The translations under genes and the position numbers were made by a program. A stretch of DNA of 64,000 nt, taken from positions 1 through 64,000 of IMG/VR virus record IMGVR_UViG_3300025141_000062; one strand, 5' to 3'. Positions 32,619 through 38,700 of this stretch are shown in pieces; position 1 is the first letter of the stretch, and each line of letters opens with the position of its first letter. This stretch comes from a virus. The notes below the pieces were generated by a model. It did not search any database and had not been told where the DNA came from. It was given only the letters and a program-made list of their open reading frames with translations.

Positions 32619-34547
32619 ATGAGTAAGTCTTTTACGTTAAGCCAATTAACAGAAGGAATACGTCAACGTCACCTGGGTGCACACAACAAGCGTCTCGTTG
32701 AGAAGTGGTCACGTACCGGTCTTCTTAGAGGGCTTGATGGCCAGCATCGAGAGAACATGGCAGGCCTTCTTGAAAATCAGGCTGCACAGCTTCTTAGAGA
32801 AGCTAACTCTGTTGGAACAGGAGCCGGTGCAGGTACCGCCTCTGGAGACCTTCAGGGATTCACAAATATCGCGTTTCCAATCGTCCGTCGTGTTTTCGGT
32901 GGCTTGGTTGCAAATGAGCTAGTTTCAATTCAGCCAATGAGCCTTCCTTCCGGACTGCTATTCTATCTGGATTACACATATGGCTCAAGGGTCGGTGGTG
33001 ACACAAACCTTGCCACAGGCGCTGCAGGAGCAGCTGATGCTCAGACCTATAAGATGGGTCAGTCAATCTATAACAACCCAGCAGGAAAGGGAGTACGCTC
33101 CGGATCACTTGCAGCAGGTGGGCAGTATGACCTTGTCGGAACTTCATTCTCCAAGGTTCACACATCCTCAGCCTCGATTACTGTTAAGGCTTCAGGTTCG
33201 TTTGGTGCTAACTCAACTCTTGGACAGGCTACTACCGCACACGCGACAGGTTCTGATGGAAAGCTACTTCAGTTTGACCCACAGATCACATCGCTTATTG
33301 AAGATGATCCCTCCAGAGATGGTCTAGGAACATTCCAGTTCGTTCTGTTTAATCTAAGCTCGCTTCCAGCAAGCACAGATCTTACAATGTACAAGGAAAT
33401 TTCAATATTCAGTGCTGTTCCAGGCGCAGCAGCTCCATCAACAGCTAATAACGTTGGATATGGCGCAATTCCAGAGTCGATTCAGGGAGGAAAGAACATC
33501 CTCAACGTACGTCGTCTAAATCAGCTTGGAACTTGGGTTGGAGATACATTCACTTCAGATCCATTTGCAACCAGAAGCACAAGTAATGGTGTACTTCTAA
33601 CAGTAGTATCTGGAACAAGAGGCCGAGGAGGTGGCGCTGCCACACTTAACCTTACAGCTTCTGTTGTTATATCACCAACGCTTAGTGTTGAAAGCGACGG
33701 TTCAGCTCTAACGATTCCATCGTTTGAGTCCAACTTTAGCACATCTTCACCTTCACCGATCATCCCAGAGATCGACATCAAGATCGAGTCAATCGCTGTT
33801 ACAGCGGTAACCCGTAAGCTCCGTGCTCGCTGGTCACCAGAACTCGCTCAGGACCTGAACGCTTATCACAGCTTGGATGCTGAGGTTGAGCTTACACAGA
33901 TCCTATCCGAGCAGATTGCTCTTGAGATTGACAGAGAGATCCTAAATGATCTGCTATCTGAAGCAGCTGGTGCTAACTACTACTGGTCACGTATGCCTGG
34001 TAAGTTTGTTAACAAGACAAACGGAACTGTTCAGGATAAGGCAAGCACACTGTCTGCTGGTCCCCAGTTCACAGGTACTGTCCGTGAGTGGTACGAGACG
34101 CTTGTTGAGACAATTATTGATGTTGCAAATGAGATTCACAGGAAGACACTCCGTGGCTCAGCTAACTTCATCGTAACCTCACCAGATGTTGCTACAATCT
34201 TCGAGGCATCAGTTCTTTACAAGCCGAACCTCAAGATTGACGGAGATGGACAGGTCGGTGCTCCATTCCAGCTTGGTGCTGCCAATATCGGCTCTCTAAG
34301 CAACCGATTCACGGTTTACAAGGATCCATATTTCCCACGGAATAAGGTTCTTGTTGGATACAAGGGTGGAAGCTATCTTGAAACAGGATATGTTTACGCT
34401 CCATATGTCCCGCTGATCGTTACACCTACTATCTTCCAGCCGGAAGACTTCACACCCCGTAAGGGAGTTATGACTCGCTACGGTAAGAAGATGGTTAGAG
34501 GTGACTTCTACGGTACAGTTACAGTTATGGATCTAAACGTCATATGA
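32619..34547 (+). CDS. gp23: Major capsid protein
   Basis: Strong ribosome binding site (TAGGAGA). The 642-residue product matches T4 gp23 in its N-terminal delta region (LTEGIRQRHLG to about 60), then LREA at 59-62, fitting gp21 cleavage after Glu61, and QGFTNIAFPIVRRVFGGLVANE, where the HK97-like fold begins. Further matches are VTAVTRKLRARWSPELAQDL near 387 and the C-terminal FTPRKGVMTRYGKKMVRGD. Gp23 forms the hexamers of the head. This copy is longer than T4's 521, mainly through a Gly/Ser/Ala-rich insertion at about 110-250. Codon use is GC-richer with CGT/CGC arginine codons, unlike the AGA/AGG-rich neighbours, as expected for the most abundant protein. A strong terminator follows. Confidence 0.95.
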   Translation: MSKSFTLSQLTEGIRQRHLGAHNKRLVEKWSRTGLLRGLDGQHRENMAGLLENQAAQLLREANSVGTGAGAGTASGDLQGFTNIAFPIVRRVFGGLVANELVSIQPMSLPSGLLFYLDYTYGSRVGGDTNLATGAAGAADAQTYKMGQSIYNNPAGKGVRSGSLAAGGQYDLVGTSFSKVHTSSASITVKASGSFGANSTLGQATTAHATGSDGKLLQFDPQITSLIEDDPSRDGLGTFQFVLFNLSSLPASTDLTMYKEISIFSAVPGAAAPSTANNVGYGAIPESIQGGKNILNVRRLNQLGTWVGDTFTSDPFATRSTSNGVLLTVVSGTRGRGGGAATLNLTASVVISPTLSVESDGSALTIPSFESNFSTSSPSPIIPEIDIKIESIAVTAVTRKLRARWSPELAQDLNAYHSLDAEVELTQILSEQIALEIDREILNDLLSEAAGANYYWSRMPGKFVNKTNGTVQDKASTLSAGPQFTGTVREWYETLVETIIDVANEIHRKTLRGSANFIVTSPDVATIFEASVLYKPNLKIDGDGQVGAPFQLGAANIGSLSNRFTVYKDPYFPRNKVLVGYKGGSYLETGYVYAPYVPLIVTPTIFQPEDFTPRKGVMTRYGKKMVRGDFYGTVTVMDLNVI

Positions 34548-34568: not shown

Positions 34569-34600
34569 AAAGGGGCGGCTTTTTAGCCGTCCCTTTTTTT
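34569..34600 (+). terminator. Rho-independent terminator after capsid gene
   Basis: The stem GGGGCGGCT (34572-34580) pairs with AGCCGTCCC (34585-34593), with one G-T pair, around a TTTT loop. A run of T follows. It is 22 bases past the capsid stop codon and probably limits read-through into the sulfotransferase gene. Confidence 0.9.
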
Positions 34601-34634: not shown

Positions 34635-35513
34635 ATGATAATTTCACACAAGAATAGATTTGTATTTTTTAAACCTATGAAAGTTGCAGGATCAAGCTTA
34701 GAGGTTGCTTTAAGCAGATTTTGCGGAAAAGATGATATATTAACTGGTACAAATCACATAGCAGAAAATCTATCTAGTGAATATGAATATCCAGCTAGAA
34801 ATAATATGATATCACAAAATCTGAAACGAGATGCTGCAATTGAGGCTATGAGGGCATCTGGAAATATCGACAAAGTCACAAAAGAAATGATTGATGAAGG
34901 ATTTATTGTACGCTTCCTAGAGCCAAGGTTTCATATGCACGCAACTCCGTTACAGGTTCAGCTATCAGAAGACATAGACACATCAAGCTATAGGCAGATA
35001 ACAATAATAAGAAACCCCTGGGATATGATTGTTTCATTTTTTTGGTGGTCTTTCTATACTCTTCCAAACGGATATGTTGATAAAAATGGAAACGTATATA
35101 AGAAAGATCAAGCATATAGGCTTTCACCGGCTAGAAATCCAGATATTTCACCAACAGAGAATGACACCATATCAGAACTTAGACTAAAGTTTGAGATATT
35201 TTGTCAAATGTCTGCTGATATGATAGGTCCATACGGATTAGAGAAAAATGTCAAAGTTGTTGACTGGTTTATTAATAGAAATTTAGAATACTACGCCGAT
35301 AGCATAGATCATATTTTAAGATTTGAATCAATTCAAGATGACTACAATGCTCTCTGCAAAGACCTGTCTCTAGATTCTTCACCACTCCCAAGACTTAAGA
35401 CATCTCAGAGAAAATTAAAGACACCCTATAGAGAATATTTTAATGACTGGACATACAATTACATAGAAAGCAGAGTTAGCCAGTGGAAAGAAAAATTTAA
35501 ATATTCTTTCTAA
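34635..35513 (+). CDS. Sulfotransferase-family protein
   Basis: The 292-residue product has the PAPS-binding motifs of sulfotransferases: the 5'-phosphosulfate loop FFKPMKVAGSS (11-21) near the N-terminus and the 3'-phosphate motif RNPWDMIVSFFWW (126-138) with the conserved Arg126 and Ser134. HMHAT (100-104) is a candidate catalytic or substrate-contact segment. These enzymes transfer sulfate from PAPS to a hydroxyl or amine of sugars, proteins or lipids. No signal peptide or membrane segment is seen. The gene lies between the capsid gene (after its terminator) and a decoration protein, where no T4 core gene belongs, so it looks like an acquired accessory gene. Substrate unknown; capsid glycans or host surface polysaccharide are possible. 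Confidence 0.8.
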   Translation: MIISHKNRFVFFKPMKVAGSSLEVALSRFCGKDDILTGTNHIAENLSSEYEYPARNNMISQNLKRDAAIEAMRASGNIDKVTKEMIDEGFIVRFLEPRFHMHATPLQVQLSEDIDTSSYRQITIIRNPWDMIVSFFWWSFYTLPNGYVDKNGNVYKKDQAYRLSPARNPDISPTENDTISELRLKFEIFCQMSADMIGPYGLEKNVKVVDWFINRNLEYYADSIDHILRFESIQDDYNALCKDLSLDSSPLPRLKTSQRKLKTPYREYFNDWTYNYIESRVSQWKEKFKYSF

Positions 35514-35545: not shown

Positions 35546-35600
35546 GCCCGGCACCTAGCATAAAGGCGACCCCACCGTCGTGTCGGAAGCATGTGGACTT
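35546..35600 (+). ncRNA. Candidate structured RNA leader with pseudoknot
   Basis: The segment is GC-rich in an AT-rich intergenic gap. CCGGCAC (35548-35554) pairs with GTGTCGG (35580-35586). An inner GAC/GTC pair closes a loop, CCCACC, whose CCAC (35572-35575) can pair with GTGG at 35593-35596, forming a pseudoknot. It ends 25 bases before the decoration protein ATG. It does not fold as a tRNA. It matches no riboswitch class I can name. It may be a regulatory leader or processed RNA. Evidence is by hand pairing only. Confidence 0.35.
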
Positions 35601-35625
35601 AACACCTATTAAAAGGGAGAAAATT

Positions 35626-36006
35626 ATGCCAAAAATGACCTATACAACCGCTAAGGGCTTAGTTCAATCAGGAGGATCTGGTGCTCCAAATATGTACTGG
35701 ATGAAGCCAGGAAGCACAACTGCTTCAGGTGCTGGTGCAATTCCAGTCACACATGCATATGTTGCTGCCACAGCCGGCGGTGCCGTTGCCTGGACTCTTG
35801 CCGATGGCGACCCCGGTCAGGTTCTACAAATTTATTCAGTAGATGCAAACACCGGAACACTTACACCTACAACTGCGACGGGTTGGGCAACAATCGTATT
35901 TACCGACGCGGGTGACCGTGCTGTGCTTCAATTTATTGATGGTACTATTGGGTGGATAATTCTCGGTCTTTCAGGAGTTGCAGCTCCACCTGTTACTACA
36001 GTTTAA
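35626..36006 (+). CDS. Probable capsid decoration or abundant virion protein
   Basis: The start ATG at 35626 follows AAAAGGGAGA by eight bases. An upstream in-frame GTG lies in the structured leader and is less likely. The 126-residue protein is Gly/Ala/Thr-rich and beta-like: AWTLADGDPGQVLQIYSV, then GWATIVFTDAGDRAVLQFID, then IGWIILGLSG. Repeated hydrophobic-polar alternation suggests a small beta-sandwich. GC-richer codon choice, like that of the capsid gene and unlike most neighbours, indicates high expression. A strong terminator follows, so it is its own short transcript or the end of one. Together these suggest a decoration protein on the head (Hoc/Soc-like role). No homologous family is recognised. 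Confidence 0.65.
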   Translation: MPKMTYTTAKGLVQSGGSGAPNMYWMKPGSTTASGAGAIPVTHAYVAATAGGAVAWTLADGDPGQVLQIYSVDANTGTLTPTTATGWATIVFTDAGDRAVLQFIDGTIGWIILGLSGVAAPPVTTV

Positions 36007-36052: not shown

Positions 36053-36080
36053 AAAGCCCGCACTATGTGCGGGCTTTTCT
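36053..36080 (+). terminator. Rho-independent terminator after decoration gene
   Basis: A very stable stem of AAAGCCCGCAC with GTGCGGGCTTTT around a TAT loop is followed by T-rich sequence. It lies 47 bases past the stop codon and separates the capsid or decoration transcript from the tubulin-like gene. Confidence 0.92.
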
Positions 36081-36114
36081 TTATTTCAAAAAATAAGATA
36101 TTTTATTAAATATT

Positions 36115-36120
36115 TATAAT
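36115..36120 (+). promoter_or_regulatory. Candidate -10 box TATAAT before tubulin-like gene
   Basis: A perfect TATAAT lies 21 bases upstream of the ATG at 36142, just after the terminator. No good -35 box is present at 16-18 bases. Because a terminator precedes it, the tubulin-like gene needs its own promoter, which supports the call. A late-type promoter with only a -10 element is also possible. Confidence 0.4.
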
Positions 36121-36141: not shown

Positions 36142-37374
36142 ATGGCAAGTACAATGAGAACTGTAAGAAAAAATTACAGTAAGCAAAAAAATGTTAAAAA
36201 TACAAATTCTCAATTCTACGCTGACGAAGAAGTTAGCAATGATGATGAGAGCGGTGATAAAGTGAAACCAGTAGATAAAAAAGAAAAAACAGAGAATGCA
36301 AAAAAGGAGACAGAAAAAATAATGTCCAATTCTAATGATGATTTTGATTTTGTAGCAGATTATGATGAACCAGTAGAGAGTGGTGGCGATAAGCTTTTAC
36401 CAGAAAATGAGGCACAATCCTCAATATCTGTAGGCTTTGTAGGTGTCGGCGGAGGCGGTGGAAAGCTAGCGAAGGCATTTATAGACATAGGGTTTAAAAA
36501 GACACTAGTCGTAAACACAACAGAAAAAGATCTACCTGCTGGAATAGACAAGGAACATTTTCTTCTTCTACCTGGCGCAGATGGTGTGGGTAAAAATGTC
36601 AAGCTAGGAAAGAAAATATTGACAGAAAATAGTGCATTTCTTGAAGACTTTTTAAGAACAAGGCTGGGAAAAGTTGACTGGCTCTTTGTCCTTGCTGGTG
36701 GCGGAGGAGGAACAGGAAGCTCTTGCTGCGCACTAGACGGAAGTCTTAATAGATATCTAAAGTCTACATCTGCATCTGGCAAGGTTGTATATATCGTTAC
36801 AGCACCAACAGCTCAGGAGCTTTTAAATCCAACTATTGAGGAAAACTACAAGCTTCTAAGAGAAGATGTCTCAGATAAGCCTCATATCATAATTGATAAT
36901 GAAAGACAGCTACAGCTTCTTAGAGGAAAGGTTGGAATGCTTGGTCTATATCCAGCAGCAAATAAGAACTTTGCAAAGCTAATTGGTCAGATATTAAAGC
37001 TTTCTAACGAGCCATCACCAATTCAGACTTTTGATTCAAAGGATCTTGAGAGATGTCTAAGTACACAGGGGAGAATGTTTCTAGGGACAACAGTGATAAG
37101 AGATCCAAGTGATCCGAACCTTGGATCGCTCATATATCAGAACTGCCTTAGCAAATCACCATGTCCAGCCCCTACTGGCCGAGCACAGACAGGCGTGCTA
37201 CTTCTTGTCGTTACATCTGAAATGGCTTCTGATCCAGCCCTAAGCAACCAATTAGAGGCAGCAATATCTTACGTGGGAGGAAGAACATCAGCCCTATTTT
37301 CAGGAGTCTATGTTAGAGAGGGTCTTCCCGGATTGATAGCAATATCAGCATTGGGTGGAATTGAAGAAAAATAA
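36142..37374 (+). CDS. Tubulin/FtsZ-family GTPase
   Basis: The 410-residue protein has the tubulin/FtsZ signatures in order. A glycine-rich loop GFVGVGGGGGKLAKAF is at 98-113, and NTTEKD (125-130) follows. GADGVG is at 145-150, and the hallmark tubulin loop AGGGGGTGSS is at 185-194. A T7-type catalytic loop, IQTFDSKDLERC, is at 294-305; its Asp298 and Asp301 match the D-x-x-D that hydrolyses GTP across subunits. Residues 1-95 are a charged, probably disordered extension. This family forms dynamic filaments: FtsZ divides cells and phage PhuZ positions DNA in phiKZ-like phages. Finding one among head and neck genes of a T4-related phage is unusual. Its role here is unknown. Confidence 0.85.
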   Translation: MASTMRTVRKNYSKQKNVKNTNSQFYADEEVSNDDESGDKVKPVDKKEKTENAKKETEKIMSNSNDDFDFVADYDEPVESGGDKLLPENEAQSSISVGFVGVGGGGGKLAKAFIDIGFKKTLVVNTTEKDLPAGIDKEHFLLLPGADGVGKNVKLGKKILTENSAFLEDFLRTRLGKVDWLFVLAGGGGGTGSSCCALDGSLNRYLKSTSASGKVVYIVTAPTAQELLNPTIEENYKLLREDVSDKPHIIIDNERQLQLLRGKVGMLGLYPAANKNFAKLIGQILKLSNEPSPIQTFDSKDLERCLSTQGRMFLGTTVIRDPSDPNLGSLIYQNCLSKSPCPAPTGRAQTGVLLLVVTSEMASDPALSNQLEAAISYVGGRTSALFSGVYVREGLPGLIAISALGGIEEK

Positions 37375-37524: not shown

Positions 37525-38700
37525 ATGGCAACTTTTTCAAATACAACTAGTCCTACACCGTTTGGATTTTTTGACGACGATACAGATTTTCAGCTCGAGG
37601 CTGACAATATAGTAACATTTGTCAAGAGAAAGATGGGTGATGATATCCTTAGTGTCGAGCTTACTAAGAAGCAGATCTGGGGAAACCTTGAAGAGTCCTG
37701 TCTCGAATATGGGTCAATTTTAAATCAGTATCAAGCTAAGTCACAGCTCATTCAATTTTTAGGAATGCCAACAGGAAGCCACCTTTCAGGATCAGAGCAG
37801 AAGTACCCTAGAGAGAATCTGGAGTATCTCATAAGATTTGCTGAACCATATGCTATGGAAGCAGGCGTCGGAGGATCCTATAATACAATATCGGGATCTA
37901 TTCAGCTAGTTAAAGATCAGCAAGACTATGATATATACACAGATTTAAAAGACTCGCACGGAGGAATATTATTTCAGTCTGGAAGTAATTCTTCACCCAA
38001 GACAAAGCTTAAGATAAGCGAGGTCTTTCACTTTGGCCCAGAGGCTGCATATAGATTTTTTGATACAACTAGTGCAATTAACTATCTTAATAATGAGTTC
38101 AGCTTTGAGTCATTCACACCAGAGACTATATTCTATGTTCTTCCAGTCTTTGAAGATATACTAAGAGCAGGCCAGTTAGACTTATCAAACAGGGTTAGAC
38201 GATCTAACTATTCATATAAGATTCAAGGTACAAAAATAAGGATATATCCGAAACCATCTACCTCTGACCCTAAAAAGCTATTTATAAGAATTATGTTTAG
38301 ACCAGACCCACTCAATCCTGCGTATGAAGATGATACAATTCATGGTGTTTCCAATCTTTCAAATATTCCGTTTGGAAATCTGATATACGCTAGGATTAAC
38401 AGCATAGGAAGACAGTGGATTAGACAGTATTCACTTGCACTAAGTAGAGAGCAGCTAGGGTTGATTAGGTCTAAATTTGGAAACATTCCTGTTCCGGGGT
38501 CTGATGTCACATTAAACGGATCAGACCTAATAACACAGGGAAGGGCAGATAGGGATGCACTTGTTACGCAGCTAAAGGAAATGCTTGACACGCTGACATA
38601 TGATAAAATTATGGAGAATGCTGCTACACGCGCAGAATCTGTTCAAAAACAGCTTAGATTTTCACCAATGCCAAATGGCTTTACAATCTTTATGGGATAA
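37525..38700 (+). CDS. Neck / head-completion protein (gp13-like by context)
   Basis: Preceded by AGAAGGA. The 391-residue product opens with an unstructured stretch, then a helical segment (about 25-60, NIVTFVKRKMGDDILSVEL). A beta-rich centre (SGSIQLVKDQQDYDI, TKIRIYPKPS) follows, and the end is another helical part (about 270-340). That layout resembles head-completion or neck proteins that sit on the portal. In T4, gp13 and gp14 precede gp15 and the sheath gp18, and the same order of four genes is seen here. I therefore assign it to the gp13 position, with modest certainty because I see no diagnostic motif. Three bases separate it from the next gene. Confidence 0.65.
   Translation: MATFSNTTSPTPFGFFDDDTDFQLEADNIVTFVKRKMGDDILSVELTKKQIWGNLEESCLEYGSILNQYQAKSQLIQFLGMPTGSHLSGSEQKYPRENLEYLIRFAEPYAMEAGVGGSYNTISGSIQLVKDQQDYDIYTDLKDSHGGILFQSGSNSSPKTKLKISEVFHFGPEAAYRFFDTTSAINYLNNEFSFESFTPETIFYVLPVFEDILRAGQLDLSNRVRRSNYSYKIQGTKIRIYPKPSTSDPKKLFIRIMFRPDPLNPAYEDDTIHGVSNLSNIPFGNLIYARINSIGRQWIRQYSLALSREQLGLIRSKFGNIPVPGSDVTLNGSDLITQGRADRDALVTQLKEMLDTLTYDKIMENAATRAESVQKQLRFSPMPNGFTIFMG

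Follow-up and report, generated by a model that had tools for sequence, protein, structure and literature searches.

A predicted tubulin-superfamily GTPase lies between capsid and neck genes

The window analysed here is a 64,000-nucleotide stretch of viral DNA (positions 1 to 64,000 of IMG/VR record IMGVR_UViG_3300025141_000062), and all of the features described below lie on its + strand. The gene under study, found in the list of open reading frames at 36142..37374, encodes a protein of 410 aa. It occupies a variable slot bordered upstream by the gene for a gp23-type major capsid protein (32619..34547) and downstream by that for an Ad2/gp13-like neck protein (37525..38700). This capsid-neck location in a T4-related phage, proposed in an earlier note made from the window alone, was confirmed. 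The slot also holds a sulfotransferase-like gene (34635..35513), possibly an accessory gene that modifies a surface or a metabolite, and an ORF of 137 aa with no assigned function (35593..36006).

The same note had assigned the product to the tubulin/FtsZ family of GTPases, and both searches and models bear this out. Pfam matched Tubulin at residues 98-223 (E=5e-5) with a score of 24 bits, which is below the gathering cut-off of 33, and phmmer against the PDB returned an FtsZ match (3.5e-9) covering residues 97-320 of the phage protein. In a first AlphaFold2 model, residues 1-84 were disordered and the remainder was ordered. A model of the core (residues 92-410, 44 aligned sequences; pLDDT 94.2, pTM 0.92) showed a GTPase domain, a central helix of 22 residues and the T7 loop; the second domain is complete and ends directly after its last strand, with no H11, C-terminal helix or tail. 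Structure prediction, which had been suggested as a check, thus recovered the two-domain tubulin core, with the predicted helix H7 (residues 266-287; 36937..37002) joining both domains. Foldseek searches with the core model placed CetZ at the top (1e-21), alongside FtsZ and TubZ; TM-scores normalised to the query reached 0.81 for TubZ, 0.80 for CetZ2 and 0.76 for FtsZ. Across the structure searches, 913-973 PDB chains matched at E<=0.001, which places the protein within the tubulin fold. Against a viral library, the best hits were to a protein labelled 'FtsZ' from an uncultured Caudovirales phage, at 18% identity, to one from a Myoviridae sp. and to PhuZ proteins. Judged from sequence and model, the product of the 36142-37374 ORF is a full tubulin-superfamily GTPase.

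The GTPase core is conserved and the extension carries a short peptide

The active-site elements lie where they had been placed: the T4 G-box GGGGGTGSS at residues 186-194 (36697..36723) and the T7 catalytic loop QTFDSKDLE at residues 295-303 (37024..37050), which holds D298 and D301. Alignments also locate the T1 glycine loop GVGGGGGK at residues 101-108 (36442..36465). Residues of the T1 loop, GGGGGTG, DNE and FDxKDLE were invariant in the phage family (44 sequences), and the equivalents of Asp298 and Asp301, invariant in this set, were nearly so in another alignment of relatives. Among 69 distinct relatives, the T4 pattern was kept in 59 and the T7 pattern in 54, that is, wherever each was matched (the rest include fragments), and QxFDxKDLE was present in 54/54 distinct sequences that the T7 pattern matches. 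Alignments of relatives thus show that both halves of the composite active site are kept, as had been claimed. In pairs of close relatives the core dN/dS was 0.01-0.08, with values of about 0.02: purifying selection on the core is very strong.

Codons 1-84 (36142..36393) encode the N-terminal extension that AlphaFold2 predicts to be disordered. Its dN/dS in close pairs, where computable, was 0.18-0.56, which argues that the extension is translated yet fast-evolving. Alignments and dN/dS also single out a conserved linear peptide, DDFDFVADYDE (residues 66-76; 36337..36369), as a candidate partner-binding motif; within it, DFDFVxxY had near-zero dN and almost no amino-acid change in close pairs. 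The disordered extension described in the earlier note therefore stands for residues 1-84, but the description of it as simply disordered does not, because the conserved peptide sits at residues 67-74. The DFxFVxxY peptide did not recur in other proteins of the 64-kb window. This pattern of conservation is typical of an enzyme whose active site is essential and whose flexible arm bears a binding peptide.

An internal Met at codon 61 (window 36322) stands just ahead of the DFDFV motif in many relatives, a purine-rich Shine-Dalgarno-like stretch lies about 12 nt upstream of this Met in relatives, and the tubulin of one locus (L022) starts at it. Codon 61 was rejected as the sole start because the codons upstream of it have dN/dS below 1 and the MAS start is conserved. 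A second, shorter isoform beginning at this Met is possible.

The phage tubulins form a clade outside FtsZ and apart from PhuZ

A phylogeny of the GTPase core, also suggested as a check, set the phage family apart as its own clade outside FtsZ and, in this tree, nested in neither PhuZ nor TubZ: FtsZ, together with one Rhodoferax plasmid protein, split from everything else (100/100), and PhuZ (100/100) and the phage family (96/89) formed separate clades. The tree was built without CetZ and eukaryotic tubulin sequences and its deep branches are long; on such branches the sister relation of PhuZ and the phage family was weak (93/77), and a grouping of the family with TubZ gave AU p=0.51. Membership of FtsZ was rejected by the 100/100 split, although FtsZ gives the best BLAST-type scores.

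The likeness to FtsZ extends from the best sequence matches in the PDB to the shared fold and active-site plan, but the phage tubulin stops after the last strand, without a C-terminal linker or partner-binding peptide. Its T3, H6 and T7 signatures were unlike those of the Flavobacteriales FtsZ examined, and in a motif alignment phage G gp138 and TubZ-like plasmid proteins came nearer to them than FtsZ did, the common features being a GxGK/R[DN] T3 loop, I/VDNE before H6 and FD/LDxxDL at T7. TubZ itself is also close in structure (TM 0.81, Foldseek); however, identity to TubZ and phage G gp138 is about 25%, no TubR-like partner was found among neighbours of 50 aa or more at the phage loci, and the phage family has no C-terminal helix or tail. 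CetZ, though the top Foldseek match, is only 19-21% identical and was compared by structure, outside the tree sampling. PhuZ resembles the family as a jumbo-phage-encoded tubulin fold with an acidic T7 motif and a candidate role in positioning phage DNA or capsids. The phage family differs from PhuZ in forming a separate clade, in its long N-terminal extension and lack of H11 or an acidic tail, and in its carriers, which have a T4-type head and, in the contigs tested, neither chimallin nor a multisubunit RNA polymerase.

The phiKZ TubZ has the opposite layout, with a C-terminal helix H11 and an acidic tail and no long N-terminal arm (PMC3678025), and in PhuZ and TubZ the H11 helix or C-terminal tail serves assembly and partner binding (PMC3678025, PMC5322520). 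As modelled, the phage family inverts this PhuZ/TubZ tail layout, carrying an arm at the N terminus and lacking a tail at the C terminus. Like the carriers described here, the uncultured metagenomic huge phages of Al-Shayeb et al. encode tubulin homologues, which those authors named PhuZ and tied to the phage nucleus (PMC7162821). Reviews of jumbo phages describe tubulins of PhuZ or TubZ type only (PMC7824862, PMC13282480), and our literature search, which had most subscription papers and preprints outside its scope, returned papers on PhuZ and TubZ but none on the present family. Since the reviews name these two types only and Al-Shayeb et al. speak of PhuZ, the family may be present in earlier data without having been set apart.

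Carriers are T4-like phages with probable Bacteroidota hosts

A single-sequence scan of IMG/VR recovered 27 tubulin loci and a profile scan 342 relatives, of which the best 80 were read; the carrier contigs reach 293 kb. A related T4-like gp23 was found in 12 of the 14 tubulin contigs tested, with 68-82% identity to the window gp23 in eleven and 46% in one, and the two contigs without it may be fragments. In two carriers the gp23 capsid gene is present twice, the copies lying side by side (L193/L202, record G002; L191/L203, record G006). When 50,697 records of deposited phages were searched by tblastn, the sole match was Bacillus phage G gp138, a weak one at 24% identity, in keeping with the initial view that tubulins are no standard part of T4-type genomes. 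The phage tubulin family is real and sizeable, and it stands apart from PhuZ and TubZ by its sequence, its layout and the phages that carry it.

Genome assemblies gave five tubulin matches, in four Flavobacteriales MAGs and one Halobacteriovorax MAG, and the capsid protein of the window is kin to those of Flavobacterium phage immuto and Rhodothermus phage RM378. From the Flavobacteriales matches and this capsid kinship, the host is probably a member of the Bacteroidota. Searches of ten carrier contigs, possibly incomplete, detected neither chimallin nor multisubunit RNA polymerase; both positive controls, phiKZ and 201phi2-1, were positive. We therefore rejected a nucleus-forming phage as carrier and place the tubulin outside the known nucleus system.

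The tubulin gene is accessory and occupies several genomic sites

Among 52 capsid relatives showing both flanks, tubulin occupies the capsid-neck gap in 8, and in some tubulin-free relatives this gap is only about 200 nt. Twenty further records were tested, among them a relative of 257 kb and four phage genomes that are deposited or metagenomic, and one of the twenty has a tubulin; in immuto and Mel-JY01 a PhoH gene lies in the matching gap. Other carriers have the gene before the prohead protease, or off the head genes beside PhoH, GroEL or tmRNA; in all, 45/87 classified loci fall within the head block, at the capsid-neck gap or ahead of the prohead protease. Site labels, assigned by script and in a few cases crude, required at least 17 changes on a 66-sequence tree, compared with 35 when they were shuffled. 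Together with the empty gaps, these changes argue for an accessory gene that has changed its site more than once. It is missing from many relatives and is thus dispensable.

The head-block setting noted at the outset therefore holds as far as the capsid-neck gap is concerned, but it is a weak clue to a role in the head, because the gap is variable and the family is found at other sites. A fixed head-gene role is likewise weakened by the tubulin-free or empty slots and the several genomic sites. Across the tubulin loci no shared small neighbour (>=50 aa) was found, nor a TubR-like partner among the neighbours, nor a conserved neighbour suited as a cargo adaptor.

A promoter-like element recurs upstream of tubulin, neck and head genes

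The suggestion that the gene has its own promoter and follows a terminator agrees with what lies upstream: a terminator-like hairpin just before the gene (36053..36077; 11 pairs, T-rich tail) and a promoter-like ATATTTA element 32 nt before the start codon (36110..36116). Another terminator-like hairpin follows the capsid gene (34569..34596; 12 pairs, T-rich tail). The hairpin scan overall was at the level of shuffled DNA (4 found, 4.0 expected). In relatives, ATATTTA stood upstream of tubulin in 27/61 cases, versus 3.4 expected. The element was first picked by eye at this position, and therefore only other genes provide an independent check: it was found upstream of the neck gene in 17/34 (1.6 expected), of w31035, which heads the capsid unit, in 10/21 (1.2 expected), and of w43941 in 7/20 (1.1 expected). 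There was no enrichment upstream of gp23 itself or of most internal genes, and no clear second box accompanies the element. This distribution suggests that ATATTTA is a phage late promoter and that the tubulin is expressed late. Neither the Bacteroidota promoter TAxxTTTG nor the T4 late promoter TATAAATA was enriched upstream of tubulin, and GAATAATTAT occurs there only in a few close relatives.

A proposed filament with an N-terminal cargo hook

We propose that the protein forms a phage-encoded, GTP-driven filament that acts late, organises virus production and carries an N-terminal cargo hook. In the fold, the N-terminal domain carries the GTP pocket and the T7 loop presents its catalytic DxxD on the opposite face. 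Subunits could join head to tail, with the T7 aspartates of one completing the GTPase site of the next; GTP hydrolysis would then make the filament dynamic. The disordered N-terminal arm would project from the filament, and its DFDFVxxY peptide may dock a phage or host partner, by analogy with the C-terminal tails of FtsZ and TubZ. The C-terminal tail of FtsZ docks partners. Within the host, such a filament could position phage DNA, proheads or sites of assembly. Because we infer every functional step, we regard this proposal as about evenly balanced between right and wrong.

The protein might instead act on the host division ring as a mimic, co-assembling with or titrating host FtsZ or its partners, blocking division and leaving larger cells for phage production. 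Its fold and loops do resemble FtsZ, and a free N-terminal peptide could compete for a host partner; however, the family lies outside FtsZ on a 100/100 branch with T3, H6 and T7 signatures that differ from the Flavobacteriales FtsZ examined, and an inhibitor would need no invariant catalytic DxxD of its own. The upstream element, moreover, is common to structural genes, and blocking division late would gain the phage little. We consider this mimicry unlikely.

That same element, being common to head and neck genes, and the 45/87 loci in the head block would fit a structural or assembly factor of the virion, a scaffold or ring aiding head maturation, packaging or neck attachment. This is quite improbable given that the gap is free of tubulin in many relatives that share the capsid, and in some measures only about 200 nt, that other carriers have the gene far from the head genes (beside PhoH, tmRNA or GroEL), and that a passive scaffold needs no catalytic GTPase. 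Finally, the T3 loop, 'DNE' and 'FDxxDL' held in common with phage G gp138 and TubZ-like plasmid proteins, and the place of TubZ among the best structural matches, could point to TubZ-like partitioning of the phage genome as a low-copy episome in a carrier or pseudolysogenic state. A small ORF (about 100 codons) often precedes the TubZ-like plasmid genes examined, at the position where TubR is expected, but no small neighbour of 50 aa or more is shared at the phage loci, and the phage protein has no TubR-binding C-terminal tail; we give partitioning very little credence.

To our knowledge, phage cytoskeletons are known almost only from nucleus-forming phages and plasmid-like TubZ elements; PhuZ centres the phage nucleus and carries capsids. 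The present family raises the possibility that a second large phage group makes a cytoskeleton of its own. More tentatively than the late filament itself, we envisage a third phage tubulin system apart from PhuZ and TubZ, in which nucleus-free T4-like jumbo phages of Bacteroidota hosts would form filaments with an N-terminal cargo peptide for late assembly. A large family of conserved tubulins in such phages would separate tubulin from the nucleus and raise the question of what purpose a phage spindle serves in an ordinary infection, and the inverted layout would test which parts of a tubulin are needed for filament dynamics and cargo binding.

Other genes near the tubulin loci

Phage tmRNA genes lie close upstream of tubulin in 16 of the 22 loci scanned (L077:5725-6130, L074:7106-7486, L053:9627-9940, L021:8386-8793, L036:9300-9663 and 11 more loci), with tags that include ANDNVEFDYALAA and ANNNYHFESARLAA. 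In one subgroup (L048/L045/L039/L076), genes for GroEL (Cpn60), a sigma-70-type factor and a 5'-3' exonuclease form a conserved block near tubulin. PrkA kinase, SpoVR and DUF444 together make up a bacterial stress-response set, and a block of PrkA kinase, SpoVR and DUF444 (YeaH-like) genes stands upstream of tubulin in L021, L025, L034, L043 and L056.
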